Of a DNA stretch of 64,000 bases, positions 8,194-43,911 are shown piece after piece (position 1 is the first letter of the stretch; every line of letters begins with the position of its first letter). A program made the position numbers and the translations under genes. Source of the stretch: Candidatus Eisenbacteria bacterium (GTDB taxonomy: Bacteria; Eisenbacteria; RBG-16-71-46); NCBI GenBank assembly GCA_020847735.1, contig JADLBL010000020.1:319632-383631 (forward strand), in the 5' to 3' direction. Below the pieces are notes generated by a model that had not been told where the DNA came from, ran no database searches, and saw only the letters and a list, made by a program, of their open reading frames with translations.

Positions 8194-9326
8194 GACCCGC
8201 GGCGCTCGCCGCGACCGACGCCTCGCGGCGCGCGCCGTGACTTCGGCTTCGGGGTGGAGCGGATCCTGGCGGGCGTTCGCGGGCCGGCGAGGTCCGCGAG
8301 AAGCACGCAGGCGTCCGCGACGGTCGGGTCGCCGGGCAGCCTGCGCAGCGACTTCCAGCGGGCCGCGGGCCGGTGCTCACCGAAGCGACGTTCGCACACT
8401 TCCTCGTGCGCCGCGGCGGCGAGCGGGCCATGCGGCGATCGCACGCCCACCTGGCGAAGCCGCCGCACGTCGCGCGCCAGTTCGGTCCACGAGAGCCGTT
8501 CCTCGGGCGGCGAGCCGAACTGCTCCTCGGGAAGCAGCCCGGCGGCGATCAGCGAATCGCGCAGTTCCGGCGCGTCCGCCCGGGCTCGCGTGCCGTCGTC
8601 ACCCGTGGCGGCGGACAGCATCCCCCACCAGGTGTCGCGCGTCAGCGGCGCGTCGCCCGCAAGGCCGGCCGGAAGCAGCGATTCGAGCCTCGCCCAGTCG
8701 AGGTAGGCGAGCAGCTCCTTCGCGCCGGTCGGAGCGTCGCCGAGGCGGTCCTCGACGAAGGCAACGGGGTCCGTGACCGGGGCGTTCTCCCAGCGTTCGC
8801 CGGGCGAGTCGGGCAGCCTCACCTCGAAATGAAGGTGCGGCGTGCTCGCCCGGCCGGTTCGTCCGACCAGCCCGAGCGCGTCGCCGGCGCAGACCAGCTC
8901 CCCCGCGCGCACGCACGGGCTGCCGCGCACGAGGTGCGCGTAGACCGAGTACGCGACCCGATCCTCCCCGAGCCGGTGGGCCAGAACGACGTGCGCGCCG
9001 TAACCGTTGCCGTTCGTCACCGCCCGCACGAGCAGGACGATTCCCGCAGCGGCCGCGCGCACCGTGTCGCCGGCCGTTCCATTGGCGAGGTCGGCGCCCT
9101 GGTGCGTGACGCGCCCGCGCGCGCGCTCGAGTCCGCGGTTGATGCGAAAGCCCCTGCCCTCCGCGTTCGCGGGAAGTCCTAGCTCGCGCGGGTCGCCGAC
9201 GGGGAACCGCCACGCGGTCGCCAGCCCCCAGCGTCCGGCGAGCGAGTCGTCCACGGAGAGGTAGCCGCCGAGCGCGACGGGCAGGGGCGCACCGAGCAAC
9301 GTCAGGGCCAGCGCGACGCCGATCAG
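8190..9326 (-). CDS. Secreted M23-family (LytM) metallopeptidase
   Basis: About 378 residues with a hydrophobic signal peptide. The LytM domain has zinc ligands in THQGADL (H75, D79) and HLHFEV (H164, H166), plus H131, so it should cut peptidoglycan cross-bridges in the periplasm. A ~200-residue C-terminal extension with no recognised domain follows, rich in Asp, Leu and Arg. The start is uncertain. No ATG or GTG precedes the signal peptide after the upstream stop; a CTG at 9326 overlaps that stop as CTGA and gives a good signal sequence. A TTG nine codons later is the other choice. It is co-transcribed with the M6 protease gene and its stop lies in the ileS promoter. Confidence 0.8.
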   Translation of the reverse strand: MIGVALALTLLGAPLPVALGGYLSVDDSLAGRWGLATAWRFPVGDPRELGLPANAEGRGFRINRGLERARGRVTHQGADLANGTAGDTVRAAAAGIVLLVRAVTNGNGYGAHVVLAHRLGEDRVAYSVYAHLVRGSPCVRAGELVCAGDALGLVGRTGRASTPHLHFEVRLPDSPGERWENAPVTDPVAFVEDRLGDAPTGAKELLAYLDWARLESLLPAGLAGDAPLTRDTWWGMLSAATGDDGTRARADAPELRDSLIAAGLLPEEQFGSPPEERLSWTELARDVRRLRQVGVRSPHGPLAAAAHEEVCERRFGEHRPAARWKSLRRLPGDPTVADACVLLADLAGPRTPARIRSTPKPKSRRAPRGVGRGERRGS

Positions 9327-12124
9327 CGCAGCACCACCAGTCGGGCGTGCGCGGTCCTGCCGGCGCGGACGAAGTAGAGGCCGGGGGGGAGCGCGCCGGT
9401 CAGCGCACGGGGGAACTCGGCTCTTCCGCCGGAGGCGGCCGCGATCGTGGTCGCGACCCGGCGGCCGCTCGCGTCGAACAGCTCCACGCGGGCGGCCGGA
9501 GCGATCGCGGCGCCGCTCAGCAGCAGTCCGGTTCCGGCGCGCAGCGGATTGGGCCCGAGCGCGAGGGAAGCCGCCGGAGCGGGCGCCGGCGGAGGGACCC
9601 CGAGGACCGCGTTGCCGTCGAGCCGGCGCCGGCGGGACATCTGCTGGAACCCGGAGGCGCCGTAGTTCGTGTACAGGACGCTCACCCCGCCGTTCGTCAC
9701 CGCCAGCACGCTCGTTCTCGAGGCGTTGCCGGCGGCGGGATCGGAGATGTCGGTCGAGCGGAAGTCCCAGCCGCGGCCCCGCGCGAAGCGCCGGTAGCGG
9801 ACCTGCATGCCACCCGGCGTGTCGCGCTCGAACGCCAGGTGCAGGTTGCCGAAGACGTCGAGGGTGAGCGAGGGATTCTGGAGCGTGCTGCTGGAGCTCT
9901 CGAGCACGGTATCGCGCGGCGCGAACGACCCGGTCGCCGGGCGGGACATGTAGTGAAGCTCGCTGGCGCCTGGCGCGCTCTGCTGCCAGACCACGTGCGC
10001 CGTGCCGGCCGAGTCGGCCACGACATCCACCGACGCCTGCTGTTGCACGACGTTCGAGGTGTAGCGCAGTTTCGGACCCAGCCCGGAGTCCGGGGCGTAG
10101 CGCGCGAACATCACCGCGTACTGGCCGGTACGCCGATCCGGCCACAGCAACCATGCCCGCCCATCCGGCGAGGCGGAGAGCACCGGGGCGGAGGGGTCGT
10201 CGAGCGAGTCGGTCACCGCGAGCGCCGTTCCGAAGGGCATGGCCCAGTGGAACGTCAGGAAGCGGAGCGTGGCCTGCGACGAGCCCTGCTCGAGCCAGGC
10301 GGCGAAGATCCTGCCACGCGCATCGGCGGCGAGCGCCGGAGCCGTGCATGCGGCGGGCGCGCTGGTCAGCGCGGTTTCGCCCAGCCAGGTGCCGGCGATG
10401 CGGGCGCGGTACCAGATCTGATACGTGCCGCTCCGGCGATCCGACCAGGCCACGGCGAGATCCCCGCCGGGAAGCGCGGCCAGCGTCGGCTGGATGGCCG
10501 CGACGGGGCTGGACGAAAGCTGCTCCGCCGGCTCCCAGTCGCCGTCGAACGAGCGGGTGTGCAACAGGATCTGGGGCCTGCCCGAACGCGAGTCCGAGAA
10601 CACTTCGTACTCACGACCCTGAGGAGTCACGAACGCATGCCGGCTGCGGCCCGGGTCGGGCAGCGGGCTGAAGGCGGGGTCCGAAGCGGTCGAGATCGGT
10701 TCCCAGCCGGGGGCGCGCACGTGGAAGTTGGCGGTCGTGCCGCCCGTGGCGGGCTGGATTCCGTCGAGCACCAGGTTCGTCACCGCGCCCGAGACGCTTC
10801 GCAGCGACGGGCTCGTGTCATCGTCGAGCCGGGTGACGCCGAGCGCCCCGGGGAGAGGGTCGTTGCCATCGCCACGGTTCAGGCCGTCCCCGAGGTCGTC
10901 GTCGCCGTCGCCCTCGAGCAGCCGGAGTCCGGGAGTCGGACCGGAGTTCACCCGGTTGGCGGCGAGCCGGGCGCCGATCGCGGCCTCGTCCACCTGGTAG
11001 ATCACCAGGCCGCGGCCGGGCAGGTTGCGATCGAAACCCGACCGCTCGCGGCTCTCGACCAGGAAATGCTCCGAGCTCGCCTCGCCCTGAAACGAGTACT
11101 CGAGGATCTGACCGCCGTCCGCCACGGGCACGAGCGTCGCGACCGAATCGCGCACCGGGCGCGCGGCAGCGGACCAGCCGAGGTAGAGGGAGGGCCACGC
11201 GCCCGGGTGCACCGGATACTCGGGCGAGCGACCGTCGCCGCCATACGCGCCCGTGGACATCAGGGACCAGTTTCCCGGGCCGACATTGACGGCGCCGCCG
11301 AGCGCCGCGGTGTCGTAGAGATCCGGCAGCCCGAGGGCATGCCCGAACTCGTGGCAGAAGACCCCGATCTCGCTCAGGGCTCCCGGCTTGAATCCCGAGA
11401 TCTCCGGCAGCACCGCGAAACGGTCCACGCGCACCTTCTGGGAAGTGGAGCCATTCAGCAGGTCCGCCGTCTCGATCACCCCGCCGAAACTCCAGCCCGA
11501 GCCGAGGCGGGCGGTGTTGGAGTAGAAGTTGCGCCGGCTTCCCGTCAGTTCCGCCCCGAGCCCGGCGTGCACGATCCACAGCATGTCCACGAAGCCGTCC
11601 CCGTCCCGATCGTAGCGATTCCAGTCCACCAGCGAGTCGGCGGCGAAGAGCGCGTCGCGAATCAGCCCCCAGTTGTTGTTGGGCGTCGAAAGCGGGTTCA
11701 GACCGTAGGAATCGTTCGTGTAGTAGTTCTCGGGATGGGGCAGTTGAACCGCCCCGACCACCTCGCCCCGGAAGCGCAGGTGCCCGCGCGAGGCCCACTC
11801 GAAGTAGTCGGGCACGGAGCCGGTCGCGGTCGCGTGGGTGGTGTCGAACAACGCCGACCGCAGTTCCCCGGGACCGTGGCGAAGGGTGCTGTCGGTGAAG
11901 CTCACCATGATGACCGGCACCAGCCAGTCGCTCAGGTTGGCGCTCGTGCCGAGGGCGGGGCGCGCCGGCAGGTCGAAGATCCCCGCCGCGGCGGCCTGGT
12001 GCACGACCGCTGGCAACACGCCGCCGAGCGGGGGCGGCATCGTGAGGGCGGAGCGTGGCGAGCCCAGCAACACGGCGCCAGCCGCCAGAAGGGGGAATGC
12101 GAAGCGAACGCAGGGTCGAGGCAC
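9323..12124 (-). CDS. Secreted M6-family metalloprotease with C-terminal sorting domain
   Basis: About 933 residues. After a signal peptide, residues ~60-420 form an immune-inhibitor-A-like M6 protease domain with the zinc motif HEFGHALGLPD (HEFGH near 258-262). A middle section resembles repeated propeller blades (segments such as AVAWSDRRSG and AWLLWPDRRTG). The last ~85 residues, starting at GPNPL and ending in a short basic tail, look like the FlgD/T9SS-type sorting domain common on secreted proteins of FCB bacteria. The GTG at 12124 gives a compact signal peptide. A TTG at 12172 is too close to its GGAGG and lies in the probable promoter area. The stop overlaps the M23 start. Confidence 0.85.
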   Translation of the reverse strand: MPRPCVRFAFPLLAAGAVLLGSPRSALTMPPPLGGVLPAVVHQAAAAGIFDLPARPALGTSANLSDWLVPVIMVSFTDSTLRHGPGELRSALFDTTHATATGSVPDYFEWASRGHLRFRGEVVGAVQLPHPENYYTNDSYGLNPLSTPNNNWGLIRDALFAADSLVDWNRYDRDGDGFVDMLWIVHAGLGAELTGSRRNFYSNTARLGSGWSFGGVIETADLLNGSTSQKVRVDRFAVLPEISGFKPGALSEIGVFCHEFGHALGLPDLYDTAALGGAVNVGPGNWSLMSTGAYGGDGRSPEYPVHPGAWPSLYLGWSAAARPVRDSVATLVPVADGGQILEYSFQGEASSEHFLVESRERSGFDRNLPGRGLVIYQVDEAAIGARLAANRVNSGPTPGLRLLEGDGDDDLGDGLNRGDGNDPLPGALGVTRLDDDTSPSLRSVSGAVTNLVLDGIQPATGGTTANFHVRAPGWEPISTASDPAFSPLPDPGRSRHAFVTPQGREYEVFSDSRSGRPQILLHTRSFDGDWEPAEQLSSSPVAAIQPTLAALPGGDLAVAWSDRRSGTYQIWYRARIAGTWLGETALTSAPAACTAPALAADARGRIFAAWLEQGSSQATLRFLTFHWAMPFGTALAVTDSLDDPSAPVLSASPDGRAWLLWPDRRTGQYAVMFARYAPDSGLGPKLRYTSNVVQQQASVDVVADSAGTAHVVWQQSAPGASELHYMSRPATGSFAPRDTVLESSSSTLQNPSLTLDVFGNLHLAFERDTPGGMQVRYRRFARGRGWDFRSTDISDPAAGNASRTSVLAVTNGGVSVLYTNYGASGFQQMSRRRRLDGNAVLGVPPPAPAPAASLALGPNPLRAGTGLLLSGAAIAPAARVELFDASGRRVATTIAAASGGRAEFPRALTGALPPGLYFVRAGRTAHARLVVLR

Positions 12125-12237
12125 GATCTCTCGAGTCGAAGGGTCGGGTGGGATCGGCCCGGTCAGACCCAATTGCCTCCAGTTACGGCTCCCGCGTCAA
12201 GGGACAATTTCCGGACGCGGCCCTCTCCAGCGGCATG

Positions 12238-12253: not shown

Positions 12254-13534
12254 GTGCCTTCCTTCCACCTCTCCGGCCAGGCCGTGCGTCGCATCGGCGT
12301 GCCCGCCTTCGCGGCTGCCGCCGTGCTTCTCGTGGCCACCGGCGCCCTCGCCTCGGGCGAGCTTCAGCCCCTGCGTTCGCTGCAGCCCCCGCTGTTCACC
12401 GCGGACGTCGCGGTGGCGCTCGACTCCACCGCACACCCGACGGTGGAAGTCACGTTCACGCTGCCCTATGCGGAGATCAGCTGGAACAAGCTCCAACGGG
12501 GCTACGCGGGCGGAGCCGGCTTCTCGATCGTCTTCGAGCCGTCGGGCGGTCGGCGGCTCTTTGGCGACTCCTGGGAGAAGCGCCTGCTCGTCGAGAGCTA
12601 TGGCGCCACCCGAAACCAGCGCAACCAGCTGGTGGTCCGCCGCTCGTTCGACCTTCCGCCGGGGCGCTACCGGATCAGGGCCCGCGTCCGCGACGTCAGC
12701 TCGTGGGTGGAGTCCGAAGCCGACGACCAGCTCGATCTCGCCGATCTGGCGAATGTGCCGGTCGGCTTCTCGGACCTCCAGCTTGGGACCAGCGACTCGA
12801 GCGGGAAGTTCACCCCGGTCGCGACCCGCAGGTTCGGCGACGGCGCCATCGGGTTGACCGCGCGCGCGGTCGCCCTCGACCGGCGCGCGGGCGAGTGGCC
12901 GCGCCTGGCGAAGCTCCACTGGCGGATCAGCGAGGCGGGGGGCGAGGTCGTCCAGGAAGGGGACACCACCCTGACGCTGCGGCAGGAGGTGCAGCCCGTC
13001 GAACTGCGGCCGCGAAACCCCGGACTGTTCATCGGCGACTACCTCCTCGAAGTCGAACGGGTCGAGGGCAAGTCGCGCTGGCGCACGTCGCGCACGTTCG
13101 AGGTCGAGGAAAGCGGCCCGCCGAGGGGAAAAGAGTACGCGCTCATGCTCGAGGCGCTTTCCTACATCGCGCAGCCCAAAGAGATCGACGCCATGCGGAA
13201 CCTGCCCGAGGACCAGCAGGCCGAGGCCTGGGAGCGCTTCTGGGCGCGTCGCGACCCCACGCCCGAGACCCCGGTCAACGAGAACCTGATCGAGTTCTAT
13301 CGCCGGCTCCGCCACGCCAATCGGCAGTTCCAGGGCATCGGACCGGGCTGGCGCTCGGACATGGGCCGCATCTACATCCGCTACGGACCTCCCGACCAGG
13401 TCGAGTCGCAGCCGGGCAGCGCGACATCGCCGACGATCGAAATCTGGTACTACCACCAGCCCTACCATCGCTTCGTGTTCGCCGACCGGGAAGGCTTCGG
13501 CCGCTACACGCTGCTCAATCCCGAGGCGGAGTGA
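12254..13534 (+). CDS. GWxTD domain-containing secreted protein
   Basis: A 426-residue protein with a signal peptide (hydrophobic stretch at ~15-30). Two beta-rich regions follow. The C-terminal ~130 residues match the GWxTD domain: a helical segment (EALSYIAQPKE...), then GPGWRSDMGRIYIRYGPPD, the hallmark of the family, here with RSD where TD is usual. Its function is unknown; the family occurs in Acidobacteria, Gemmatimonadota and related phyla and is usually exported. The GTG at 12254 is chosen because the -10 box at 12241-12246 rules out earlier starts. It overlaps the NlpC/P60 gene by four bases (GTGA), so the two are a coupled pair. Confidence 0.82.
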   Translation: MPSFHLSGQAVRRIGVPAFAAAAVLLVATGALASGELQPLRSLQPPLFTADVAVALDSTAHPTVEVTFTLPYAEISWNKLQRGYAGGAGFSIVFEPSGGRRLFGDSWEKRLLVESYGATRNQRNQLVVRRSFDLPPGRYRIRARVRDVSSWVESEADDQLDLADLANVPVGFSDLQLGTSDSSGKFTPVATRRFGDGAIGLTARAVALDRRAGEWPRLAKLHWRISEAGGEVVQEGDTTLTLRQEVQPVELRPRNPGLFIGDYLLEVERVEGKSRWRTSRTFEVEESGPPRGKEYALMLEALSYIAQPKEIDAMRNLPEDQQAEAWERFWARRDPTPETPVNENLIEFYRRLRHANRQFQGIGPGWRSDMGRIYIRYGPPDQVESQPGSATSPTIEIWYYHQPYHRFVFADREGFGRYTLLNPEAE

Positions 13535-14651: not shown

Positions 14652-15893
14652 ATGATGCACCAGATCAAGCGCTTCATCGTCGTGGCGGCGGTCGCCAGCA
14701 TGGTGCCGGCAATCGCGTTCGCCTCGACGGGTCGTATCTCGGGTCTCGGCATCCCCGGCGACTACGTCAAGGACTACACCGGGATGTTCACGTACCTGTC
14801 TTCGGTCAACTCGACGGGCAACCTCGTGTATGCCGAGACCGGAACGATGTTCGGCGTCTCGACGGCGGATGACCGCGCGATGGGCGCGGTGCTGCCGAAC
14901 CTGTTCGACGGCAAGGCCGGCGTGTGGGCCATTCACACCCGCATGTTCAACCCGGCCCTCGGCCAGTCCTGGTGGGGCGCCCCGATCAACGGTGGGTTCA
15001 ATTCGTTCGACCCGAACGACGACGCCAACGGTTCCGAGTCGTTCGACCTCATGTGGGGACACCGCATGGGTTCGGCGAACCTCGGCCTGCGCCTGAGCCG
15101 CCAGTTCTTCTCGTTTGACAACGGCACGGACACGCAGGAAGGCTCCGACTCCGATGGCCGCAACATCATGGGCTTCGGCGCCGGCGTCGGCTTCGACATG
15201 AACGAGAACACCTCGGTCGAGGTCTCGGCCCAGTACCAGTCGCGTGGTTTCAAGCAGGGTGACCAGCCCACCGACCTGCAGGACGACGGCGGCGGTGCGT
15301 ACCTCATCGCGGCGCGCGCGTGGATGAAGCAGGGCGCGAGCACGACGATCGTCCCGGTCGTGAAGGTCTGGTCGATCGACCAGTCCACGAAGAACTCGAC
15401 CACCACGTTCGACGACAAGCTCAGCGGCTGGCAGGCGGGTCTGGCGGGCAACTGGAACGTCGGCCGTGACGACCTGTTCGTGCTCGGGGCGCAGCTGGTC
15501 GGCAACAAGAGAGACCAGGGCACGGACGAGTTCACCGAGACGCTCCTCCCGAACCTGTTCATCGCCCTCGAGACGCACCTGAACCCGTGGCTGGCGTTCC
15601 GCTGCGGCGCCCAGCAGTCGGTGTTCGGCAGCTACAAGAACGAGCAGCCGGGCCTGACGCAGACGACCAAGGTCTCGGATTTCAGCTTCATGATGGGCAC
15701 CACGGTCAAGATGGGCAACGTGCAGTTCGACGCGGTCCTCGATCCGGCGTTCTTCAACAACCCGTTCGCGCAGCTGCTGGGCAACTCGAGCGCGGTGTTC
15801 GAAGGCACGGGCTACGGCATGGACACGCGCGCGACCGGCGGCCCGGGCTTCGGCTCGGCGTTCCCGCAGGTCAGCCTGACCTACACCTGGTAA
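14652..15893 (+). CDS. Putative abundant outer-membrane beta-barrel protein
   Basis: A 413-residue protein with a clear signal peptide ending around AIAFA. The mature N terminus has GLGIPGDYVKDY, a pattern seen in uncharacterised surface proteins of FCB-type bacteria. The rest is alternating polar/hydrophobic beta-strand sequence, and the chain ends in SLTYTW, an aromatic terminus typical of barrels recognised by BamA. A strong promoter, a ribosome-binding site AAGGAGG and a strong terminator directly after it, plus narrow codon use, indicate a highly expressed single-gene transcript. It is probably a porin-like major outer-membrane protein. Substrate is unknown, and the family name could not be fixed from sequence alone. 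Confidence 0.7.
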   Translation: MMHQIKRFIVVAAVASMVPAIAFASTGRISGLGIPGDYVKDYTGMFTYLSSVNSTGNLVYAETGTMFGVSTADDRAMGAVLPNLFDGKAGVWAIHTRMFNPALGQSWWGAPINGGFNSFDPNDDANGSESFDLMWGHRMGSANLGLRLSRQFFSFDNGTDTQEGSDSDGRNIMGFGAGVGFDMNENTSVEVSAQYQSRGFKQGDQPTDLQDDGGGAYLIAARAWMKQGASTTIVPVVKVWSIDQSTKNSTTTFDDKLSGWQAGLAGNWNVGRDDLFVLGAQLVGNKRDQGTDEFTETLLPNLFIALETHLNPWLAFRCGAQQSVFGSYKNEQPGLTQTTKVSDFSFMMGTTVKMGNVQFDAVLDPAFFNNPFAQLLGNSSAVFEGTGYGMDTRATGGPGFGSAFPQVSLTYTW

Positions 15894-15918: not shown

Positions 15919-15956
15919 TCGGGGGCGTCCCACTCGGGACGCCCCCGAAGTTTTTT
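15919..15956 (+). terminator. Strong intrinsic terminator
   Basis: A perfect 13-bp stem (15919-15931 with 15936-15948, loop ACTC) is followed, after AG, by six T (15951-15956). It ends the transcript of the barrel protein. Confidence 0.9.
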
Positions 15957-16268: not shown

Positions 16269-19115
16269 ATGCCTCGAAGCTTCCTGTGGGCCATCCGGCT
16301 GACGGTTCTCGCCGCCGTGGTGGCACTGGTGCCTCTGGCCCTGGCCGGCACGACCGGCAAGCTGTCGGGCCGCGTCGTGAACGAGAAGAAGGAGCCGCTC
16401 GCCGGAGTCAACGTCCGCATTGATGGCCAGCGCCTGGGTGCGATCACGGACGATGACGGCAGCTACTTCATCATCGGCATTCCGGCCGGCCAGTACGTCG
16501 TGCGCATGAACCTCGTCGGCTACGCGCCGTTCGTCGCCGAGCGCGTCGAGGTCTCGCCCGACTTCACCACGACCCAGGACGCGCAGATGCGCACCGAGGC
16601 CGTGCAGCTCGGCGAGGTGCGCGTCGAGGCGACCCGTCCCCTGCTGCAGAAGGACGCCACCGGCACGACCCGGTTCATCAGCTCGGACGACATCCAGAAG
16701 CTGCCGACCCGCGGTTACCGTGACGCCGCCGCCCTGCAGACGGGCATCGTCAACTTCGCCCGCAACATCGACACCGAAGCGCAGAACAACAACACCCTGA
16801 TCATCCGCGGCGGCCGGCCGAACGAAACCGCCTACTACGTGGACGGGTTCTCGCAGCAGGACCCGCTGACGGGCACCTCGAGCACCTCGATCAGCAACAA
16901 CGCGATCGAGGAAGTCGTCGTCCTGACGGGCGGCTTCAACGCCGAGTACGGCCGCATCATGTCCGGCGCGGTGAACGTCGTGACCCGCGAGGGCGCGGAC
17001 AAGTACTTCGGCTCGATCGAGGCCGTCACCGACAACCTCGCGGGAAGCTGGATCGGGGCCGACAAGACCGACTACAACATCTACGACGTGTCGCTCGGCG
17101 GGCCGCTCTGGCCGGGCTACGAGGACGCGAACTTCTACGTCTCGGCCGAGCGCCGCTGGCAGGCCGATCGCGCCCCGGGGTTCCTGTCCGACGTCTTCAA
17201 GGACCAGCTCGCGACCGAAGGCCTCGCCGAAGGCCGCAAGCCTTCGAACAGCTCCGGTGGACAGACGTTCCAGGGCAAGGTGACCTGGCGGCCGACGGAG
17301 AAGGGCACCCTGAAGCTGAGTGCGCTGGGCTCCGAGGACGACTGGCGTCAGTACCTGCACGCCTACCTGTTCGACCTCCAGCACGCCCCGCGCTACTACG
17401 ACCGCAACAAGTCCTACGGCGCCACCTACAGCCACGTGCTCAGCCCGCGGACGTTCTTCAACCTCTCGGGCAATTACTTCGAGACGATGCGCAAGCGCGG
17501 AGACGGGCTGGCGTTCGACCGTCTCGCCGAGTACTACACGCCCGGCGGCAGCAACCCGACCTACGATTCCGACCTGCCGTTCTTCTGGCGTGACGGTCAC
17601 GTCTTCGACGACTACCTGCAGCGGCGGTCGTCCTATTACGGCATTCAGGGCGGGTTCACGTCGCAGATCAATCAGCACAATCAGCTCAAGGTGGGTGGCG
17701 ACTGGCAGCGGCACACGCTTCGCTACTTCGATCACTTCTTCCCGGTGCAGCTCGGCGGAACGAATCCCAACCTGCTCGACTGGGACGGCTACGGCTACCA
17801 GATGAACGTCTTCCGCGACGCGAACAACGTCGTGACGCGCATCGACCTCGAGGAGGTCAATGGCGGCCGGGACGGCGCCAAGCATCCGCAGACGTGGTCC
17901 ACGTACGTGCAGGACAAGTTCGAGCGCTCCGGCGTGATCGTGAACGGCGGCCTGCGCTTCGATCACATCAACGTCAACACGCCCGCGCTGCGCAGCGAGC
18001 GGTTCCCGCTGGGCGTGGACGATACGACCGCGAACCTGAGCGGCAGCCGGCTGGACGACGCCGACCTCGAGCCCAACAAGACCTACGCGCGCATCTCGCC
18101 GCGTCTGGGCGTCGCCTTCCCGGTGGACGAGAAGACGGTGCTTCGCTTCAACTACGGCCAGTTCTACCAGCAGCCGAACCTGCAGGACCTCTATGTCAGC
18201 TACCGCTTCCTCGACTACAAGGTTCGCAGCGGCGGTTACTTCGTCGGCTTCGGCAACCCCAATCTGCGCCCGGAGCGGACGACGGCCTACGAGGTCGGCG
18301 TCCAGCGGCAGATGGGGGATCGCGTGCGCCTCGACGCGACGGCCTACTACAAGGACGTCAAGGACCTGGTCGAGATCCAGGCGATTCCGTCGAGCCCCAA
18401 GAGCTTCTCGTCGTACCGGAATCGCGATTTCGCGACGATCAAGGGCTTCGACCTCGGCATCGCGATGCGCCCGGTCAACCACTTCTCCGGGCAGCTTTCG
18501 TACAGCTTGTCGTTCGCCAAGGGCACCGGCTCGGTGTCGAACACTCAGCGCAACATCGCCTGGGTCGGCACCGAGGTTCCGAAGCAGACGGCTCCGCTCG
18601 ACTTCGACCAGCGCCACAAGATTTCGATGAACGTGGACTGGCGACTCGGCAAGGGCGAGGGCCCGCTCATGGGCTCGCACCGCTGGCTCGAGAACACCGG
18701 CATCAACGCGCTCTTCAACGTCGGGAGCGGCACCCCGTACACCCCGACCAAGGTCTACAACGAGGTGACGCTGGCCGCGGTGGCCTCCGAGCCGAGCGGT
18801 CCGGTCAACTCGGAGTACGGCCCCTGGTCGGTGAGCCTCGACCTGAAGGCGACGCGTGAGTTCGTGCTCGGCAACCTGAAGGTCGAAGCCTTCGTGTGGG
18901 GACTCAACGTGCTGGACAACAAGAACCCGATCACGGTCTACACCTCGACCGGATCGCCGTACACCACGAACTGGATCAACACCGACGACGGCCAGACCTT
19001 CCTCGCGAACACCGTGGCGAAGAACGGCGGGCAGCTCTACGACCTGGCCGAGAACAACCCGAATCTCTACGCCAACCCGCGTCTCGTGCGGTTCGGACTG
19101 CGGACGAGCTTCTGA
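16269..19115 (+). CDS. TonB-dependent receptor with carboxypeptidase-like N-terminal domain
   Basis: A 948-residue outer-membrane receptor. After a signal peptide (ending ALAG), residues ~28-115 form a carboxypeptidase-regulatory-like beta sandwich (GKLSGRVVNEKKEPLAGVNV), typical of SusC-like and FCB receptors. The plug domain (~130-250) contains IIRGGRPNETAYYVDG. A long barrel follows and ends with RFGLRTSF, a terminal Phe. It should import a ligand across the outer membrane using TonB-ExbBD energy. No TonB or ExbBD gene is in the window, and no SusD-like partner. The ATG at 16269 follows AAAGGAG at good spacing. The gene precedes a huge secreted protein and a PorV-like gene, suggesting a surface export or uptake operon. 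Confidence 0.9.
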   Translation: MPRSFLWAIRLTVLAAVVALVPLALAGTTGKLSGRVVNEKKEPLAGVNVRIDGQRLGAITDDDGSYFIIGIPAGQYVVRMNLVGYAPFVAERVEVSPDFTTTQDAQMRTEAVQLGEVRVEATRPLLQKDATGTTRFISSDDIQKLPTRGYRDAAALQTGIVNFARNIDTEAQNNNTLIIRGGRPNETAYYVDGFSQQDPLTGTSSTSISNNAIEEVVVLTGGFNAEYGRIMSGAVNVVTREGADKYFGSIEAVTDNLAGSWIGADKTDYNIYDVSLGGPLWPGYEDANFYVSAERRWQADRAPGFLSDVFKDQLATEGLAEGRKPSNSSGGQTFQGKVTWRPTEKGTLKLSALGSEDDWRQYLHAYLFDLQHAPRYYDRNKSYGATYSHVLSPRTFFNLSGNYFETMRKRGDGLAFDRLAEYYTPGGSNPTYDSDLPFFWRDGHVFDDYLQRRSSYYGIQGGFTSQINQHNQLKVGGDWQRHTLRYFDHFFPVQLGGTNPNLLDWDGYGYQMNVFRDANNVVTRIDLEEVNGGRDGAKHPQTWSTYVQDKFERSGVIVNGGLRFDHINVNTPALRSERFPLGVDDTTANLSGSRLDDADLEPNKTYARISPRLGVAFPVDEKTVLRFNYGQFYQQPNLQDLYVSYRFLDYKVRSGGYFVGFGNPNLRPERTTAYEVGVQRQMGDRVRLDATAYYKDVKDLVEIQAIPSSPKSFSSYRNRDFATIKGFDLGIAMRPVNHFSGQLSYSLSFAKGTGSVSNTQRNIAWVGTEVPKQTAPLDFDQRHKISMNVDWRLGKGEGPLMGSHRWLENTGINALFNVGSGTPYTPTKVYNEVTLAAVASEPSGPVNSEYGPWSVSLDLKATREFVLGNLKVEAFVWGLNVLDNKNPITVYTSTGSPYTTNWINTDDGQTFLANTVAKNGGQLYDLAENNPNLYANPRLVRFGLRTSF

Positions 19116-19144
19116 TGAACCTCATCGCCGGCAGGAGGCCTGAG

Positions 19145-22100
19145 ATGATTCTTCGCCGTTCGTGGCCCGTGTGGGCCATGGTCCTGCTCGGTGTCGCGCT
19201 GCTCGCGGGCAGCGCGTCGTCCGAGCCCAACCGGGCACTCGCGCGGGTCGCCGTCCGCAAGCCGGCCGTCAAGCCGGTCAAGGCGCTGAAGGACGAGCGC
19301 GTCAACACCGAGAGCAGCGATCGGCGGGTGGACGTCAACTCCATCAACATGTTCGTGACCAACAAGGGTTCGATCGCGAACGACTTCGCGAACAACAACA
19401 ACTCGGGGCTGTTCTTCCCCAAGGGCACTCTGAAGACGGCCGTGTACGAGTCGGGCATCTGGATCGGCGGCAAGCTCGCCGGTTCGCTCAACGACTACCG
19501 GGTCGCGATCGCCGAATACAGCCAGGAGTTCCAGCCGGGCGCCATGACCGGGCCGGGAGCGTGGGACGATCCGAACGACCCGGCGTTCACGGTCTACAAG
19601 GTGGCTCGCTGGAGCGGCAACCCCAACGATTCCGCGCACGTCGAGCGCGACCCCGTGGCGGTCGGCAAGGACCGCACCCTGGACCCGCTCTTCCATCATT
19701 CGTGGAGCGAGTACATGGCGGGCGCCGTCCCCTATGGCGCGCCGTGGAAGTACTACGACCTGCCCGACCCGAACAATCCGGGCGGAACGGTGCAGGTTCC
19801 CGGTCCCGACGTGACGGGCGACCAGATGCTGTGGTCGGTCTACAACGACGCCGACCCGGCCGTGCACACGAACCAGCTCTCGACGCCGCTCGGCGTCGAA
19901 GTCCAGAACTCGGTCTTCGGGTTCGACCGGCAGGGCGCGCTCGGAAACACGGTGTTCCTCGACTACAAGGTCATCAACAAGAGCGGGAACGACTACGACT
20001 CCTGCTACGTGATCCTGTGGTCCGATCCGGACCTCGGTGGCGCGGGCGACGATCTCACGGGCTGCGACACGACCCTGTCGGTGGGCTACGTCTACAACGC
20101 CACCAACACCGACCAGCTCTACGCCGGCCGCCCGCCGTGCGTGGGCTACGACTACTTCCAGGGCCCGAAGGTGAACGGTGTGCCTCTCGGCATGTCGGCG
20201 TTCATCCAGTACATCAACGGTACGGACCCTTCCAACGCCACCGAGACGTACAACTACATGCGCGGGTTCGCGAAGGACGGCTCGCCGATCATCAACCCGG
20301 ACACCGACGAGCCGGCCAAGCTGATGTACCCCGGTGACCCGGTGAAGGGCACGGGCTGGCTCGACTCGAACCCGTCGGACCGGCGCTTCATGTGCATCGC
20401 CGGCCCGTTCACGCTGGCGGCCGGAGATACCCAGGTGATCGTCGGCGCGATCGTGATCGGCCAGGGCGGCAACCGGCTGTCGTCGATCACCGCGATGAAG
20501 TTCTACGACATCAAGGCCCAGAAGGCGTTCGACCTCGACTTCGACCTGCCTTCTCCGCCACCGCAGCCGCAGGTGTCCTTCAGCACGGACCATGGCAGCG
20601 TGAACCTGCTGTGGGACTCGGGTTCGCGCTTCAACTACATCGCGCCCGCGGGCTACGCGTTCGAGGGCTACAACGTGTACCAGGGCGCGTCCGTCGCCGG
20701 CCCGTGGACGCGGCTGTTCACGTTCGACGTTCCGAACGGCATCGGCGTGGTGCGCGACTCGGTCTTCGACATCGAGGTCGGCGAAGTCATCCACGACATG
20801 CCGGTCGCCTTCGGCGGCGACAACGGCGTGCAGTACACGTACGCCGCCAACACGGACGCGATCCGTGGCGGTCCGCTGCGCGACGGGACGCCGTACTTCT
20901 ACGCGATCACGGCCTATGCGGTGAACCCGAACCCGTCGCAGGGCCTCGACAAGGTGCTCGAGACGTCCTTCCAGCCGGTCACCGTGATCCCGCAGCGGCC
21001 GGCCTCCGGGACCGACGTCAGCACCGCGTACGTGAACGCGGCCGATGTGCACCGGGTGAGCACGGGGACGCCGGCCACGACCGATCACGTCGTGGTGGAC
21101 GTCGTGGATCCCGCTTCGATCACGGGGCACACCTACGCGATCACCTACCAGGGCGCGAGCCCGCCGTACACCTGGTCGCTCACCGACCTGACGACCAACC
21201 AGACGCTGCTGTCGAACCAGACCGAGCGGACGAACTCGCCCTCGTACGCGCCGGTGGACGGCATGGTCATCAAGCTGCGCGAGTCCCAGACCTCGCATGG
21301 CCCGCTCAACGACGTCTACTACGCGCCATTCGACAACGACATGCCGTGGCACGGCGTGGGCGCGGGGCTGGGGGACGCGGCGACCGGTTCGGAGCTTTAC
21401 GACGACAGCTTCGGGTACGGCTTCGACTTCTTCGCCGGCATCGATCCGGACGCCAGCCCGGGGCTGTTCCCGAGCGTCGAACTGCGCTTCGGGCCGACGC
21501 AGCCCGGGTACATCTACTACCGCGACGAGCTTCCCGGCTCGGGCGGCGCCCCCGCCAACACGGGCCGTGGCTACACGTACGGCGGACTCGGCACCGTGCC
21601 CTTCCAGGCGTGGGACGTGGACAACAACGTCCAGCTCGAGGTCGGCTTCGTCGAGCGGCGGATCACCGACAACGACGGCAATCCGGCGGCCAGCCAGCCC
21701 GCGACTCACGACGGCATCTGGATGCCCGACGGCAGCTCGACCGGCGGCCGCGAGTATCTCGGCATCAGCTCGTATCCGTTCGTCGCCGGAACTCCGAACC
21801 CCCTGCTGGCCGCCGACGGCGCGCTCGTGGGCGGTGACGAGGGCTGGCTCTACGACGCGTGGCTCTACCGGACCGGCACGGTCAAGCCCGGAGACAGGTT
21901 CATCATCGTCTCCGGCGGCAACCGGCCCGGCACGCCCAACGACTCGCTGATCTTCACGACGGTCAAGTCGTCGAGCGGAGAGGTCGCCCTGCAGCGGGCG
22001 GGCTTCTCGAAGATTCGCGCGGTTCCGAATCCCTACTACGCGCATTCCGCGTACGAACTCTCGTCGCTCAACCGGATCATCAAGTTCGTGAACATGCCGG

Positions 22101-22321
22101 AGCAGGCCACGGTGCGGATCTACAACCTCGCCGGCGACCTGGTCCGGACCCTCCACAAGACCGACGCGTCGTCGTCCATTCTCGAGTGGGACCTGCTGAC
22201 GGAGAACCAGCTGCCGGTCGGAAGCGGTGTGTACGTCTATCACATCGAGGTGCCGGGAGCCGGGCAGACCTTCGGAAAGCTCGCGGTCTTCGTCGAGAAG
22301 GAACGACTGTCCAACTACTGA
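19145..22321 (+). CDS. Very large secreted protein with C-terminal T9SS/FlgD-like sorting domain
   Basis: A 1058-residue protein with a signal peptide (MILRRSW... ending SASS). The long beta-rich body includes a segment SESGIWIGGKL-like region near residue 100, a fibronectin-like region (EGYNVYQGASVAGPWTRL) near 515-530, and no catalytic motif that I recognise. The last ~100 residues begin with AVPNPYY and contain VRIYNLAGDLVRTL and GVYVYHIE. This is the classic FlgD-Ig/T9SS type A-like sorting domain. The ATG at 19145 is preferred over 19115 because AGGAGG sits six bases upstream. It lies 29 bases after the TonB receptor stop and 40 bases before the PorV-like gene, consistent with an exported surface cargo. 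Confidence 0.8.
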   Translation: MILRRSWPVWAMVLLGVALLAGSASSEPNRALARVAVRKPAVKPVKALKDERVNTESSDRRVDVNSINMFVTNKGSIANDFANNNNSGLFFPKGTLKTAVYESGIWIGGKLAGSLNDYRVAIAEYSQEFQPGAMTGPGAWDDPNDPAFTVYKVARWSGNPNDSAHVERDPVAVGKDRTLDPLFHHSWSEYMAGAVPYGAPWKYYDLPDPNNPGGTVQVPGPDVTGDQMLWSVYNDADPAVHTNQLSTPLGVEVQNSVFGFDRQGALGNTVFLDYKVINKSGNDYDSCYVILWSDPDLGGAGDDLTGCDTTLSVGYVYNATNTDQLYAGRPPCVGYDYFQGPKVNGVPLGMSAFIQYINGTDPSNATETYNYMRGFAKDGSPIINPDTDEPAKLMYPGDPVKGTGWLDSNPSDRRFMCIAGPFTLAAGDTQVIVGAIVIGQGGNRLSSITAMKFYDIKAQKAFDLDFDLPSPPPQPQVSFSTDHGSVNLLWDSGSRFNYIAPAGYAFEGYNVYQGASVAGPWTRLFTFDVPNGIGVVRDSVFDIEVGEVIHDMPVAFGGDNGVQYTYAANTDAIRGGPLRDGTPYFYAITAYAVNPNPSQGLDKVLETSFQPVTVIPQRPASGTDVSTAYVNAADVHRVSTGTPATTDHVVVDVVDPASITGHTYAITYQGASPPYTWSLTDLTTNQTLLSNQTERTNSPSYAPVDGMVIKLRESQTSHGPLNDVYYAPFDNDMPWHGVGAGLGDAATGSELYDDSFGYGFDFFAGIDPDASPGLFPSVELRFGPTQPGYIYYRDELPGSGGAPANTGRGYTYGGLGTVPFQAWDVDNNVQLEVGFVERRITDNDGNPAASQPATHDGIWMPDGSSTGGREYLGISSYPFVAGTPNPLLAADGALVGGDEGWLYDAWLYRTGTVKPGDRFIIVSGGNRPGTPNDSLIFTTVKSSSGEVALQRAGFSKIRAVPNPYYAHSAYELSSLNRIIKFVNMPEQATVRIYNLAGDLVRTLHKTDASSSILEWDLLTENQLPVGSGVYVYHIEVPGAGQTFGKLAVFVEKERLSNY

Positions 22322-22361
22322 TCGGGAGGGCATGGACATGAACAACGGAAGGAGCCTGCAA

Positions 22362-23456
22362 ATGGAGGGCAGAATGGCCCGATATTTCCTGCGCGCGCTC
22401 GTCCTGTCGGCCCTCCTGGGGCTGGCCGCCGCGCCGGCGCTCGCCGGCTCGGAGGCCCGCAAGGGCACGGCGGGCGCGATGGAACTGCGCATTCCCGTGG
22501 GCGCGCGTGGGACGGCGCTGGGCGGAGCGGTCGCCAGCGACATCACCGGCGTGGAAGCCATGTTCTGGAATCCGGCCGGCCTCGCGAGCGTGACCGGGAC
22601 GGACGCTCTGTTCTCGCACCAGAACTACTTCGCCGACATGCAGCTGAACTACGCGGGCGTGGCGACCAACCTGGGCGGGTTCGGCGTCCTGGGCGTCAGC
22701 GTCAAGGTGCTCTCGGTCGGCGACATCTACGTCACGACCGAACAGGCGCCGGACGGCACGGGTGAGATTCTCACCCCGACGTTCGCCGTCCTCGGGGCGA
22801 GCTGGGCCCGGCAGTTCACGGACCGGGTGAATTTCGGCGGCACGCTGAGCTACGTGACGGAGAGCATCGCCGACAATTCCGCCAATGGCGTCGCGTTCGA
22901 CTTCGGCGTCCAGTACGTGACCGACTGGCACGGGTTCCGGCTCGGCATGGTCATCAAGAACTTCGGGCCGGACATGTCGTACAGCGGCCCGGGGTTCGAG
23001 ACGAGCGTGCTCGATCCGAACCAGGATCCGAACGCCGGCCCGCACCGGCTCTCCTACGCAGCCACCACGTTCGAGATGCCGTCCTACATCACGCTGTCCA
23101 CCAACTACAACATCGTGCAGTCGAGCAAGGCCCGGTTGACCGCGCTCGCGGCGTTCCAGAACAACAACTTCTCCGGCGACAATCTCCGGGGCGGACTGGA
23201 ATGGAGCTACCGCGACATGCTGGCGCTGCGCGGCTCGTACTTCGGCAGCTTCAACGGCAAGATCGACCCGACGACCGGCGACGAGACGTACAAGTTCGAC
23301 AGTGGCGACGACCTGTACGAGGGCTGGGCTCTCGGCGCGGGTCTCGGCACCAAGGTCGGGGCCACCTCGCACCTGGGGGTGGACTTCGCCTACCGTCCCG
23401 TCAAGGACGGCCTGTTCGACGACACGTACGAACTCGGGGTGCGCCTGAAGTTCTGA
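22362..23456 (+). CDS. PorV/PorQ-like outer-membrane protein
   Basis: A 364-residue protein with a signal peptide ending ALAG. The mature start has AMELRIPVGARGTALGGA and DITGVEAMFWNPAGLA, the signature of the PorV/PorQ (UPF0164) barrel family, and the chain ends in ELGVRLKF with a terminal Phe. In Bacteroidota PorV binds the sorting domains of T9SS cargo and delivers them to the attachment complex. Its position right after a sorting-domain protein supports a similar role here. The ATG at 22362 follows GGAAGGAG with seven bases; ATGs at 22332 and 22338 follow GGGAGG and remain possible. The operon ends at the hairpin 23477-23508. Confidence 0.85.
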   Translation: MEGRMARYFLRALVLSALLGLAAAPALAGSEARKGTAGAMELRIPVGARGTALGGAVASDITGVEAMFWNPAGLASVTGTDALFSHQNYFADMQLNYAGVATNLGGFGVLGVSVKVLSVGDIYVTTEQAPDGTGEILTPTFAVLGASWARQFTDRVNFGGTLSYVTESIADNSANGVAFDFGVQYVTDWHGFRLGMVIKNFGPDMSYSGPGFETSVLDPNQDPNAGPHRLSYAATTFEMPSYITLSTNYNIVQSSKARLTALAAFQNNNFSGDNLRGGLEWSYRDMLALRGSYFGSFNGKIDPTTGDETYKFDSGDDLYEGWALGAGLGTKVGATSHLGVDFAYRPVKDGLFDDTYELGVRLKF

Positions 23457-23476: not shown

Positions 23477-23508
23477 TCGGCCCCCGGACCGCGAGGTCCG
23501 GGGGCCGA
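23477..23508. terminator. Bidirectional hairpin between convergent operons
   Basis: A perfect 14-bp stem (23477-23490 with 23495-23508, loop GCGA) lies between the PorV-like gene and the gdh gene, which converge. It has no T-run on either side but high stability. Confidence 0.65.
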
Positions 23509-40605: not shown

Positions 40606-43600
40606 ATGCCCTCGCGCAGCCGCCTCGCCCTCCGCGTCCTCCTGCTCGCGTTCTCCGCCCTTGCCGTCGGCTCCCCGCCGTCGTTCGCCGCCGCCACCCA
40701 CGTGGTCATCAGCGAGTTCGCGACACGCGGTCCCGCTTCGGCCTTCGACGAGTTCTTCGAGCTCTACAATCCGACCGAAAACCCGATCTCGATCGGTGGC
40801 TGGCGCCTGCAGTACAAGTCCTCCGCCGGCTCGACGTGGGGAGACCGGGCGATCCTGCCGGGGGGCGCGCAGATCGCGGCGCACGGCTACTACCTGATCG
40901 CCAGCCAGGGCTACGTGGGCGCGGTCACGCCGGACTGGTCGTCGAGCCTGTGGCCCGGCAGTTCGGGCATCGCCGACAACGGCAACATGCAGCTCGTGGA
41001 CGGCGCGCTGGCCACCGTGGACAAGGTGGGCTGGGGGGCCACGAACGACCCCGAGGGCGGCGTCGCGGCTCCGAACCACGGCACCTCGGCCAACAACAAC
41101 AGCGTCGAGCGCAAGGCCAACGCGTCCTCGACCTCGACGTCGCTCGCCGGTGGCGGCACGGACCAGTTCGCCGGAAATGGCCAGGACACCGACGTCAACG
41201 GCAGCGACTTCGTGTTCCAGGGTAACGGCCGCAATCCGCAGAACGCGGCCAGCGCGCCCGAACCCGGCTTCGCGAGCGGCGGCAGCGGCACCGGCCACGC
41301 CGTGATCCTGCCCGCGACCGTCTTCACCGCCCGCAGCCTCGACTCTCTGTACGTTTCGTTCACCCAGGACTCGGCCTACACGCTCGCGAGTTTTTCGGTC
41401 GTGGTGCCGGCGAGCTGGACGTGGTCCCACTCCGCGGGTTCGGTGCTGCTCTCGGGAACGGGGTTCGCGGCCGCGACGGCTTCGGTCGTGGGTGACACCG
41501 TGTTCGTGAACGGCGCGGCGGTGACCGCGACCGACCCCGGGCTCCTGACGCTGCTCGGCGTGACGACGCCGGGAACGAAGGGCGTCTCTTCATTCGCGGT
41601 TCGCAGCGCGGTGGCCTCGGGCACGCGGCTTCCGGTGACGCCCCAGCCCGCGGTGCGCGTGCTCGAACTGGTGCCCATCGTGACGATCCACGTCAACGAC
41701 GCCGGCGGCGTGGCGGCGGCGCCGTACGCCGTCGGGGCGGAGGCGACCGTTTCCGGCATCGTGACCGCGGACCTCAATCCGACGCGCACCGACGTGTACG
41801 TGCAGGACGGCACCGGCGGCGTGGACCTGTTCAGCGCCTCGCTGCCGCCCTTCGCGCTGTCGCCCGGCGACAGCATCACCGTGACCGGAACGGTCCTGCA
41901 GTTCCGCGGGCTCACCGAGCTGCAGCCGGATTTCGCGCTGCTCGTGCGGCACGCGACCGGCCGGCCGGTGCCCGACCCCAGGATCATGACCTGCTCGGAG
42001 GTCAACGCGACCTTTCAGCCGGACTTCAGCGAGCCCGACGAGGGCCGTCTCGTGCGCATCAACGGGGTGACCTACAACTCCACCCTGTCCACGATCTCGG
42101 ACGCCACCGGAACGACCAACATCTTCATTCCGGCCAGCTGGCCGCCGGCGCCGACGGTGTTCGACGTCGTCGGCATCCTCAAGCAGTACAAGCCGGGCAC
42201 GCCGGCTCCGGGGCCGCCCTACACGGCGGACTACGAGATTTCGCCGCGCACCTCGGACGACATCATCCCGCACCCGGGGCCGATCGTGCTGACCACCCCT
42301 TACGAGGACCAGATCCAGCCGGGCTCGGTGCGGATCAACTGGACCACCGACGTGTCCTCGAGCAGCATCGTCCGCTATGGCCTGACGCCCGCGCTGGGGG
42401 ACAGTGTCCTGAACGCGGCCTCCGGGACGTCGCACGCGGTGACGCTTCCCGGGCTGCAGCCGGCGACGGCCTACTGGTACAGCGCCGGCTCGACCGACGC
42501 CAACGGCACCAACTTCGCCTCGCCGGCGATCTTCAGCACGGCTTCCCCGCCCGCCACGACCGGCGCCATTCACGCCTACTTCAACAAGAGCGTGAACGCG
42601 TCGCTCGCGTACCTGACGCCCGCCAACGGAAACGCCAACCTGCCGGCGTTGCTGTCGGCGCGCATCAACGCCGCGCAGCGCTCGGTGGACGCGGCGATCT
42701 ACAGCCTGAGCGGCACGCCGGGAACGACCCTCGTGAACGCGCTCATCGCCGCCCGGAACCGCGGCGTGCGGGTCCGGGTCATCACCGAGTACGACAATCT
42801 CGGCACCGCCGCCCTCAACTCCCTCGTCTCGGCCGGCATCCCGCTCATCAACGACCGCTTCGACCCGGTCAACTTCGGAGCGGGCCTGATGCACAACAAG
42901 TTCTTCGTCATCGACGCGCGGGGTGGGGCCCCCGAGAGCGCGTGGGTGTGGACGGGCTCGTGGAACCCGACCGACCCGGGCACGAACAACGACTACCAGA
43001 ACGCGATCGAGGTGCAGGACCTCGCGCTGGCGAACGCCTACACGCTCGAGTTCCAGGAGATGTGGGGGAGCACGACCGAGACGCCCAACGCCGCCGTCTC
43101 ACGCTTCGGCGCGCACAAGCTGGACGACACGCCGCATCGGTTCGTGATCGGCGGCCGGGACGTGCGCTGCTATTTCAGCCCCTCCGACGGGACCAACTTC
43201 CAGATCCTGCAGACCCTTCAGGCGGCGCAGCACTCCCTCGGATTCGAGCTGCTGACCCTGACGCGCTCGGACCTCGCCTCCGCGCTGATCGCCCAGAAGA
43301 ACGCCGGCCGCAAGGTGCGCGGGGATCTCGACAACAACACGGACTCCGGCTCCGAGTACGCGGAGCTCGTCGGGGCCGGGGTGGATGTGGGGCTCAACAA
43401 CGGCGGCGGCCTGCTCCACCACAAATACCTGATCGTGGACGCCGACAATCCGCAGTGGGACGGCGTCGTGCTCACCGGCTCGCACAACTGGTCGGCGTCG
43501 GCGGAGAACTCGAACAACGAGAACACGCTCATCGTCCACGACGACGATCTCGCCAATCAGTACCTGCAGGAGTTCTCGGCCCGCTACTACCAGTTCGGCG

Positions 43601-43911
43601 GCACGGATTCGATCCGCGTGACCGACGCCGGGCCGGCGGGTCCGCCGGCGGCGGTGACGATGTCGCCGGGCTTTCCGAACCCGTTCCGCGGCGAGACCCG
43701 GTTGCTCTACACGCTGCCGGTCGCCTCGCCGGTGACGCTGCGCCTGTACGACGTGCAGGGGCGCGAGGTGAGGACCCTCGTGAACGAGCGCAAGGCGCCC
43801 GGCCGTTACAGCGTCGCGCTTCGCGGGCAGGGCCTGGCGGCGGGCGTCTATCTGGCGCGCCTGGAAGCGGGCGGGGTGTCCGTGCAGCGCAAGCTGCTGT
43901 TCCTGAAGTGA
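40606..43911 (+). CDS. Secreted phospholipase D-like protein with lamin-tail and sorting domains
   Basis: A 1101-residue exported protein. After a signal peptide (ending FAAA), residues ~35-165 form a lamin-tail domain (HVVISEFATRG, LYNPTENPISIGGWRLQ). A middle part has an OB-fold-like segment (~360-530) and a purple-acid-phosphatase/fibronectin-like domain (~550-645). Two PLD half-sites follow: HNKFFVID at ~763-770 and HHKYLIVD at ~938-945, both keeping HxKx4D. The last ~85 residues (PGFPNPFRGETRL..., LRLYDVQGREV) form a FlgD/T9SS-like sorting domain. Such proteins are surface nucleases or phospholipases; the substrate is not evident. It is a single-gene unit with its own promoter. Confidence 0.85.
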   Translation: MPSRSRLALRVLLLAFSALAVGSPPSFAAATHVVISEFATRGPASAFDEFFELYNPTENPISIGGWRLQYKSSAGSTWGDRAILPGGAQIAAHGYYLIASQGYVGAVTPDWSSSLWPGSSGIADNGNMQLVDGALATVDKVGWGATNDPEGGVAAPNHGTSANNNSVERKANASSTSTSLAGGGTDQFAGNGQDTDVNGSDFVFQGNGRNPQNAASAPEPGFASGGSGTGHAVILPATVFTARSLDSLYVSFTQDSAYTLASFSVVVPASWTWSHSAGSVLLSGTGFAAATASVVGDTVFVNGAAVTATDPGLLTLLGVTTPGTKGVSSFAVRSAVASGTRLPVTPQPAVRVLELVPIVTIHVNDAGGVAAAPYAVGAEATVSGIVTADLNPTRTDVYVQDGTGGVDLFSASLPPFALSPGDSITVTGTVLQFRGLTELQPDFALLVRHATGRPVPDPRIMTCSEVNATFQPDFSEPDEGRLVRINGVTYNSTLSTISDATGTTNIFIPASWPPAPTVFDVVGILKQYKPGTPAPGPPYTADYEISPRTSDDIIPHPGPIVLTTPYEDQIQPGSVRINWTTDVSSSSIVRYGLTPALGDSVLNAASGTSHAVTLPGLQPATAYWYSAGSTDANGTNFASPAIFSTASPPATTGAIHAYFNKSVNASLAYLTPANGNANLPALLSARINAAQRSVDAAIYSLSGTPGTTLVNALIAARNRGVRVRVITEYDNLGTAALNSLVSAGIPLINDRFDPVNFGAGLMHNKFFVIDARGGAPESAWVWTGSWNPTDPGTNNDYQNAIEVQDLALANAYTLEFQEMWGSTTETPNAAVSRFGAHKLDDTPHRFVIGGRDVRCYFSPSDGTNFQILQTLQAAQHSLGFELLTLTRSDLASALIAQKNAGRKVRGDLDNNTDSGSEYAELVGAGVDVGLNNGGGLLHHKYLIVDADNPQWDGVVLTGSHNWSASAENSNNENTLIVHDDDLANQYLQEFSARYYQFGGTDSIRVTDAGPAGPPAAVTMSPGFPNPFRGETRLLYTLPVASPVTLRLYDVQGREVRTLVNERKAPGRYSVALRGQGLAAGVYLARLEAGGVSVQRKLLFLK

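Follow-up and report, generated by a model that had tools for sequence, protein, structure and literature searches.

Three adjacent genes encoding a TonB-dependent receptor, a large putative secreted surface protein (the cargo) and an outer-membrane barrel of the PorV/PorQ family were analyzed in a 64,000-nucleotide stretch of DNA, referred to here as the window, from Candidatus Eisenbacteria bacterium (GCA_020847735.1, contig JADLBL010000020.1; C20:319632-383631 of a genome, G000, of 3.66 Mb and 99.6% completeness). This triad is a real and conserved gene module that occurs in multiple copies within the genome and recurs outside the phylum. With confidence a little better than even, we read it as a surface-capture unit built on the type IX secretion system (T9SS), in which the cargo, exported through the SprA pore, would be tethered by its own PorV/PorQ-type barrel next to the TonB receptor, in analogy to the SusCD systems of Bacteroidota.

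The triad and its recurrence

The initial annotation, made from the letters of the window, had seen here a dedicated combination of a TonB receptor with a carboxypeptidase-like domain, a giant sorting-domain protein and a PorV-like shuttle. All three genes are present and adjacent on the + strand (Table 1), in a tight operon order with gaps of ~29 nucleotides between receptor and cargo and 16-52 nucleotides between cargo and PorV-like gene. For the cargo, the most probable start is at 19145, where AGGAGG is found 5' of the start codon and the N-terminus is signal-peptide-like by eye. The domain content given for the receptor was borne out by the Pfam families CarbopepD_reg_2 (PF13715, 58.9 bits), Plug (PF07715, 43.1 bits) and TonB_dep_Rec_b-barrel (PF00593, 104.5 bits), all above their cut-offs, and the barrel was rightly called PorV-like, being a member of the PorV family at 151.7 bits (NF033709 PorV_fam, cut-off 90); the cargo, at 1,058 residues, is large and not giant. 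Against the SusC/RagA model TIGR04056 the receptor attains 85.9 bits, far under the cut-off of 368.25, and it is thus not a match at the SusC/RagA level.

Four triad sets reside in this genome, namely that of the window, one on C14 (L020), one at C20:158000-178000 (L022) and one on C15 (L021), the last in the order receptor-PorV-lipoprotein-cargo. Because parts of different sets are only ~25-35% identical over the aligned stretches, the four are considered old paralogues. The window cargo has homologues in 41 of 59 relatives, and a wider profile search, sampled around one genome outside the phylum, found cargo homologues in 29 of 116 genomes. Locus reading combined with a six-frame profile search yielded 58 complete triads, counting the four of this genome, whereas no independent occurrence of the three genes was encountered in relatives; 16 of the triad-bearing genomes lie outside the phylum, and the G+C content of the loci spans 34-69%. 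Five loci of high G+C content (L139, L156, L157, L164 and L165), which appeared to be exceptions by gene calls, proved to be complete triads in the six-frame search. The TonB receptor is located upstream of the cargo in 59 of the 69 homologous loci that could be assessed. A combination repeated four times in one genome and found again in 16 genomes beyond the phylum can hardly be termed unusual, as it had been.

The PorV and CTD families are expanded in these genomes, with 10 PorV-family genes in the present genome and 6-39 matches per genome among 20 other triad-bearing genomes tested, and one might argue that three outer-membrane genes of such families were placed together by accident or by loose synteny. 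Set against the 58 complete triads, the congruence of their lineages and the lack of a linked PorV in controls devoid of the triad-type C-terminal domain (both described below), this explanation retains practically no probability; conservation of the triad outside the phylum refutes it.

The C-terminal domain of the cargo and its linked barrel

No Pfam family, SusD included, was matched by the cargo. A fibronectin-III-like stretch is discernible by eye at approximately residues 470-620, and the body of the protein is conserved in profiles A1 and A3. The designation as a sorting-domain protein stood only in part, as the C-terminal domain (CTD) falls under the standard thresholds. It scores 20.4 bits against TIGR04183 (cut-off 23), and it was returned neither by the genome search with PF18962 (E ≤ 0.001) nor by Pfam; it is supported, on the other hand, by profile matches and fold comparison. 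Profile A5, built from 14 triad CTDs, matched in the PDB the extreme C-termini of PorU (E = 2.3e-4) and PorZ (E = 1.1e-3) from Porphyromonas gingivalis, whereas PDB searches with single window proteins as queries returned no matches. An AlphaFold model of the CTD (pLDDT, the predicted local distance difference test score, of 70) was compared by Foldseek, and the CTDs of PorZ, PorU, RemZ and NucA occupied ranks 1-4, followed by that of RemA at rank 7. Since only rank 1, the PorZ CTD, reaches E = 5.5e-4 and the remaining matches are weaker, the support for the fold comes from the identity of the top-ranking proteins as much as from the scores. In this context one may recall that the CTDs of RemZ, NucA and RemA are those captured within the SprA-PorV translocon (PMC10994853). 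A full-length AlphaFold model of the cargo, computed from five aligned sequences, reached a pLDDT of 36 and was unusable for fold searches, and the CTD was pursued alone.

Within the genome the A5 scores are bimodal, with seven domains at 83-170 bits and all others at or below 36 bits, and none of the seven is found among the 27 PF18962 matches of the same genome. Neither the type B CTD model TIGR04131 nor a PorP/SprF-like partner was matched in an NCBIfam scan of the window proteins (E ≤ 0.01). Profile and model comparisons thus support the assignment of the cargo C-terminus as a T9SS CTD of a divergent, separate, immunoglobulin (Ig)-like subclass which ordinary CTD models miss.

As for the barrel, it is nearer to PorQ (NF033711, 84.4 bits, cut-off 220) than to PorV (NF033710, 46.3 bits, cut-off 250), and stays below the equivalog cut-off of both. 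The corresponding profile A4 matched PorV of Flavobacterium johnsoniae in the PDB (6h3i, E = 1.5e-25) and also weakly touches the TodX and CymD channels.

In 65 of 68 assessable cases, a cargo homologue carrying the triad CTD has a same-strand PorV gene no more than 2.5 kb away, nearly always downstream; homologues of the cargo body that lack this CTD have a PorV of their own in none of 13 cases, one of which adjoins another triad. The linked PorV hence tracks the type of CTD rather than the cargo body. A Fisher test on an earlier gene-call count gave p ~1e-8, a value that is optimistic given shared ancestry, and the derivation of the profiles from triads introduces some ascertainment bias into the linkage counts. 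When loci were chosen by PorV score, a triad-CTD cargo was present upstream of 15 of the 16 triad-type PorVs, as opposed to PorVs of the PorU-linked clade, which had none and several of which are preceded by a protein that matches the CTD only weakly.

In the PorV tree the triad PorVs, including that of the window, form one group (support 91/93) and the PorU-linked PorVs another (100/99); the triad group holds one additional member, with no cargo within its short flank. The lineages of the PorV tree recur in the trees of TonB receptor, CTD and cargo body with 3-4 label changes (minimum 3, shuffled mean 27). Pairwise distances of the triad parts correlate at 0.78-0.89, which is partly species history, and several triad lineages share one genome without swapped parts. 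As the triad PorVs constitute a separate clade and all parts share their lineages, the triads are inherited as units. Their gene linkage is far beyond chance.

These results also bear on a reading in which the parts are independent, the cargo being an ordinary substrate of the PorU-linked PorV and the barrel a FadL-like uptake channel that serves the TonB receptor. PorV does belong to the FadL barrel family, the faint resemblance of profile A4 to TodX and CymD points the same way, and three orphan proteins with a triad-type CTD have no linked PorV; but a PorV adjacency that follows the CTD and not the cargo body, a PorV clade specific to the triad gene context and a CTD subclass apart from those covered by ordinary models make such independence distinctly improbable.

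Proposed export, tethering and uptake in relation to known systems

A search for T9SS core genes elsewhere in the genome, advised by the initial annotation, succeeded in part. SprA (507 bits, cut-off 200) and PorU (465 bits, cut-off 420) exceed their curated cut-offs, whereas the motor models discussed below remained silent. SprA is encoded away from the triad, at C20:49357-53976, and the description of the triad as self-contained therefore had to be given up. Given these scores, and given that a canonical PorU-PorV pair is encoded at another site of the genome, a general carrier exists apart from the triads. A second pair, in which a propeller protein with a CTD precedes a PorV-domain protein (L026), is possibly a PorZ-PorQ pair in Eisenbacteria. 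SprA was detected in all 20 other triad-bearing genomes tested, that is, in 21 of 21 with the present one. Along with the linkage in 65 of 68 loci and the 58 triads, these core genes back the proposal of a dedicated receptor-cargo-shuttle set. Of the two findings that the initial annotation had named as contrary to it, a genome devoid of T9SS core genes and separate occurrence of the three genes in relatives, neither was made.

On this basis we infer the following course of events. The cargo would cross the inner membrane via Sec and the outer membrane via the SprA pore, after which its Ig-like CTD would be passed to the PorV/PorQ-type barrel whose gene immediately follows that of the cargo, and not to the general PorV. 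By retaining the CTD, the barrel would keep the cargo tethered on the outer surface, as is the case for PorQ-PorZ and PorV-PorU in P. gingivalis. The tethered cargo would then act together with the receptor encoded upstream, probably by binding or presenting a ligand for TonB-energised import, a role comparable to that of SusD towards SusC, taken over by a T9SS-exported protein in place of a lipoprotein. That the cargo serves import is suggested by the TonB receptor encoded on its other side, and it is supported by the sister set L022 (G000:C20:158000-177999), which is situated among glucan-degrading enzymes in a locus with GH1, a LacI regulator, a CBM9-like protein, a member of the glucoamylase family (PF10091) and GH94.

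Alternatively, the barrel could act as carrier and anchor only, exporting and tethering an adhesin, scaffold or enzyme, with a TonB receptor that is co-regulated and not physically coupled. Dedicated barrels of this kind hold type B adhesins without any TonB receptor (PMC9143113), and the cargo is without a known binding-domain family. Cargo and PorV are found without an adjacent TonB receptor in 5 of 65 loci, yet the receptor precedes the cargo in the great majority of those assessable (59 of 69), receptor and cargo body are the pair with the tightest distances (partial r 0.50), and the glucan-locus set fits uptake, so that we regard a mere carrier and anchor as rather unlikely. Very little probability is assigned to a different involvement of the receptor in lineages with SprA but without a recognisable GldL/GldM motor, whereby energy from TonB-ExbBD, transmitted by the linked receptor, would free the cargo-carrier complex from SprA; the triad would then constitute an autonomous, differently powered variant of the T9SS and not a client of it devoted to nutrient uptake.

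Several observations weigh against a surface-capture unit. Among them are the five loci devoid of an adjacent TonB receptor and the partial distance correlation of 0.21 between PorV and CTD, the proposed partners, versus 0.50 for receptor and cargo body. Adjacency of a PorV gene is not obligatory, given the three orphan proteins with a triad-type CTD in this genome (Table 1); these may share a carrier, by analogy with orphan type B cargo, for which a shared carrier has been described (PMC12618676). No nutrient genes accompany the set of the window, and for this set the absence of any Rfam family, riboswitch included, from the window and four triad loci is a further adverse point. The models of GldL and GldM found no match in this genome, in which GldK and GldN were not searched, and control genomes were equally silent; that of GldM found none in the 20 other triad genomes either, again with silent controls. 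GldL and GldM (PorL/PorM) make up the known T9SS motor, and because their models gave nothing in the controls either, absence of the motor is not claimed.

As a working rule for Bacteroidota, PorV is the general carrier common to cargo of type A, and every type B cargo comes with a PorP/SprF carrier of its own. The triads depart from this rule, in that many lineages hold several carriers of the PorV family, and each of these goes with a single cargo with an Ig-type CTD and a single TonB receptor. In F. johnsoniae, the dedicated PorP/SprF carriers of type B cargo are usually encoded adjacent to them (PMC12618676, PMC9143113, PMC12635249). The triad resembles this arrangement, exemplified by SprB-SprF in F. 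johnsoniae and PG1035-PorP in P. gingivalis, where the cargo gene is commonly followed by that of its own FadL-type carrier barrel, which serves as its anchor as well (PMC9143113, PMC12618676); it differs in its PorV/PorQ-family carrier, in an Ig-like CTD that is nearest to those of PorZ and PorU, in the lack of a TIGR04131 match and in the TonB receptor that belongs to the set. Dedicated carriers, familiar from type B cargo, would here be of PorV type and be combined with CTDs of Ig type.

PorV of P. gingivalis takes cargo over from the translocon; it also retains PorU at the cell surface, and PorQ does the same for PorZ (PMC5562754). The pairs PorU:PorV and PorZ:PorQ of this attachment complex resemble the triad in joining a surface protein with an Ig-like CTD to a barrel of the PorV/PorQ family (PMC5562754), but by family search the triad cargo is no sortase and no propeller protein, and the triads occur in multiple copies with a TonB receptor. 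They are, moreover, separate from the PorU-PorV and PorZ-like/PorQ-like pairs of the same genome. Likeness to SusCD of Bacteroidota lies in a TonB receptor that bears a carboxypeptidase-like domain at its N-terminus and is encoded together with a large partner, putatively located at the surface; in contrast to SusCD, the receptor scores far under the SusC cut-off, the partner is a cargo of T9SS type in place of a SusD lipoprotein, and the set comprises a barrel of the PorV family in addition. Ordinary type A substrates, which rely on the general carrier PorV, share with the triad cargo a signal-peptide-like N-terminus and an Ig-like CTD, SprA and PorU being present in the genome, whereas the triad CTD stays under the TIGR04183 and PF18962 thresholds and has a linked PorV paralogue to itself.

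Should the proposed course of events be correct, mostly uncultured bacteria would have a route to SusCD-like surface receptors by way of the T9SS, and the 6-39 PorV-family matches per genome would in part be accounted for. The triads would furthermore provide ready natural pairs of CTD and carrier in which the determinants of carrier specificity can be studied. No description of the triad, or of a T9SS in Eisenbacteria, was found in the literature, most subscription journals and preprints lying outside the coverage, so that an earlier description is possible; the data suggest a device for surface capture that is widespread and, as it seems, has not been described before.

Feature coordinates and neighboring genes

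Table 1. Coordinates of the triad and of related features; positions are those of the window unless a locus identifier is given.
Feature	Position	Strand	Remarks
PopA-like porin gene	14652-15893	+	57.7 bits, under cut-off 150
Terminator-like hairpin with T run	15919-15948	+	13-pair stem, then AGTTTTTTCG; upstream boundary of the unit
TonB-dependent receptor	16269-19115	+	948 aa; N-terminal carboxypeptidase-regulatory-like domain, plug, beta-barrel (Pfam)
Cargo, putative secreted surface protein	19145-22321	+	1,058 aa; signal peptide-like N-terminus, predicted C-terminal T9SS domain
Triad-type T9SS CTD of cargo, Ig-like (predicted)	21992-22318	+	Profile A5, AlphaFold/Foldseek; subclass apart from ordinary CTDs
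PorV/PorQ-family outer-membrane barrel	22374-23456 (alternative start 22338)	+	360 aa; NF033709
G+C-rich inverted repeat without T run	23482-23507	+	Read from the sequence, just 3' of the PorV-like gene
GWxTD-domain protein	12254-13531	+	PF20094
GWxTD-domain proteins, other loci	L020:12144-13514; L138:5127-6533; L144:12350-13717; L158:9949-11361; L171:5422-6972; L084:14548-15912		PF20094; L171 below Pfam cut-off
PorU, directly followed by PorV-family gene, then protein with sorting-like tail	L019:7994-13302 = G000:C20:519993-525301		PorV-family gene 196.7 bits, cut-off 90
Propeller protein with CTD, then PorV-domain protein	L026:4756-10622 (G000:C23)		PorZ model 85.7 bits, under cut-off
Orphan proteins with triad-type CTD	L098:7239-8189; L175:9731-12031; L176:9494-11920		No adjoining PorV or TonB gene

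The terminator-like hairpin stands between the three-gene unit and the porin gene 5' of it. This PopA-like gene occupies the same position upstream of the triad in close relatives, and in one of them it is repeated in tandem (L063/L067). At the other end of the unit, the inverted repeat was not called as a terminator by the terminator scan.

Proteins with a GWxTD domain are recurrent within a few genes of the triads, and in L138, L144, L158, L171 and L020 the respective gene comes shortly after the PorV gene; a GWxTD protein is a possible fourth component of the triad. Two further products of the window are likely T9SS substrates. One (9323-12172, - strand) is a metalloprotease of M6 type whose sorting tail is weak, and the other (40606-43911, + strand) reaches 29.4 bits against PF18962 at its C-terminus. 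Downstream of the C14 triad, at a distance of about 7 kb, ExbB-, ExbD- and TonB-like genes were recognized by eye (L020:18513-19998). The most extreme expansion of the PorV family, 39 matches in a genome of 5.2 Mb, was seen in G091.

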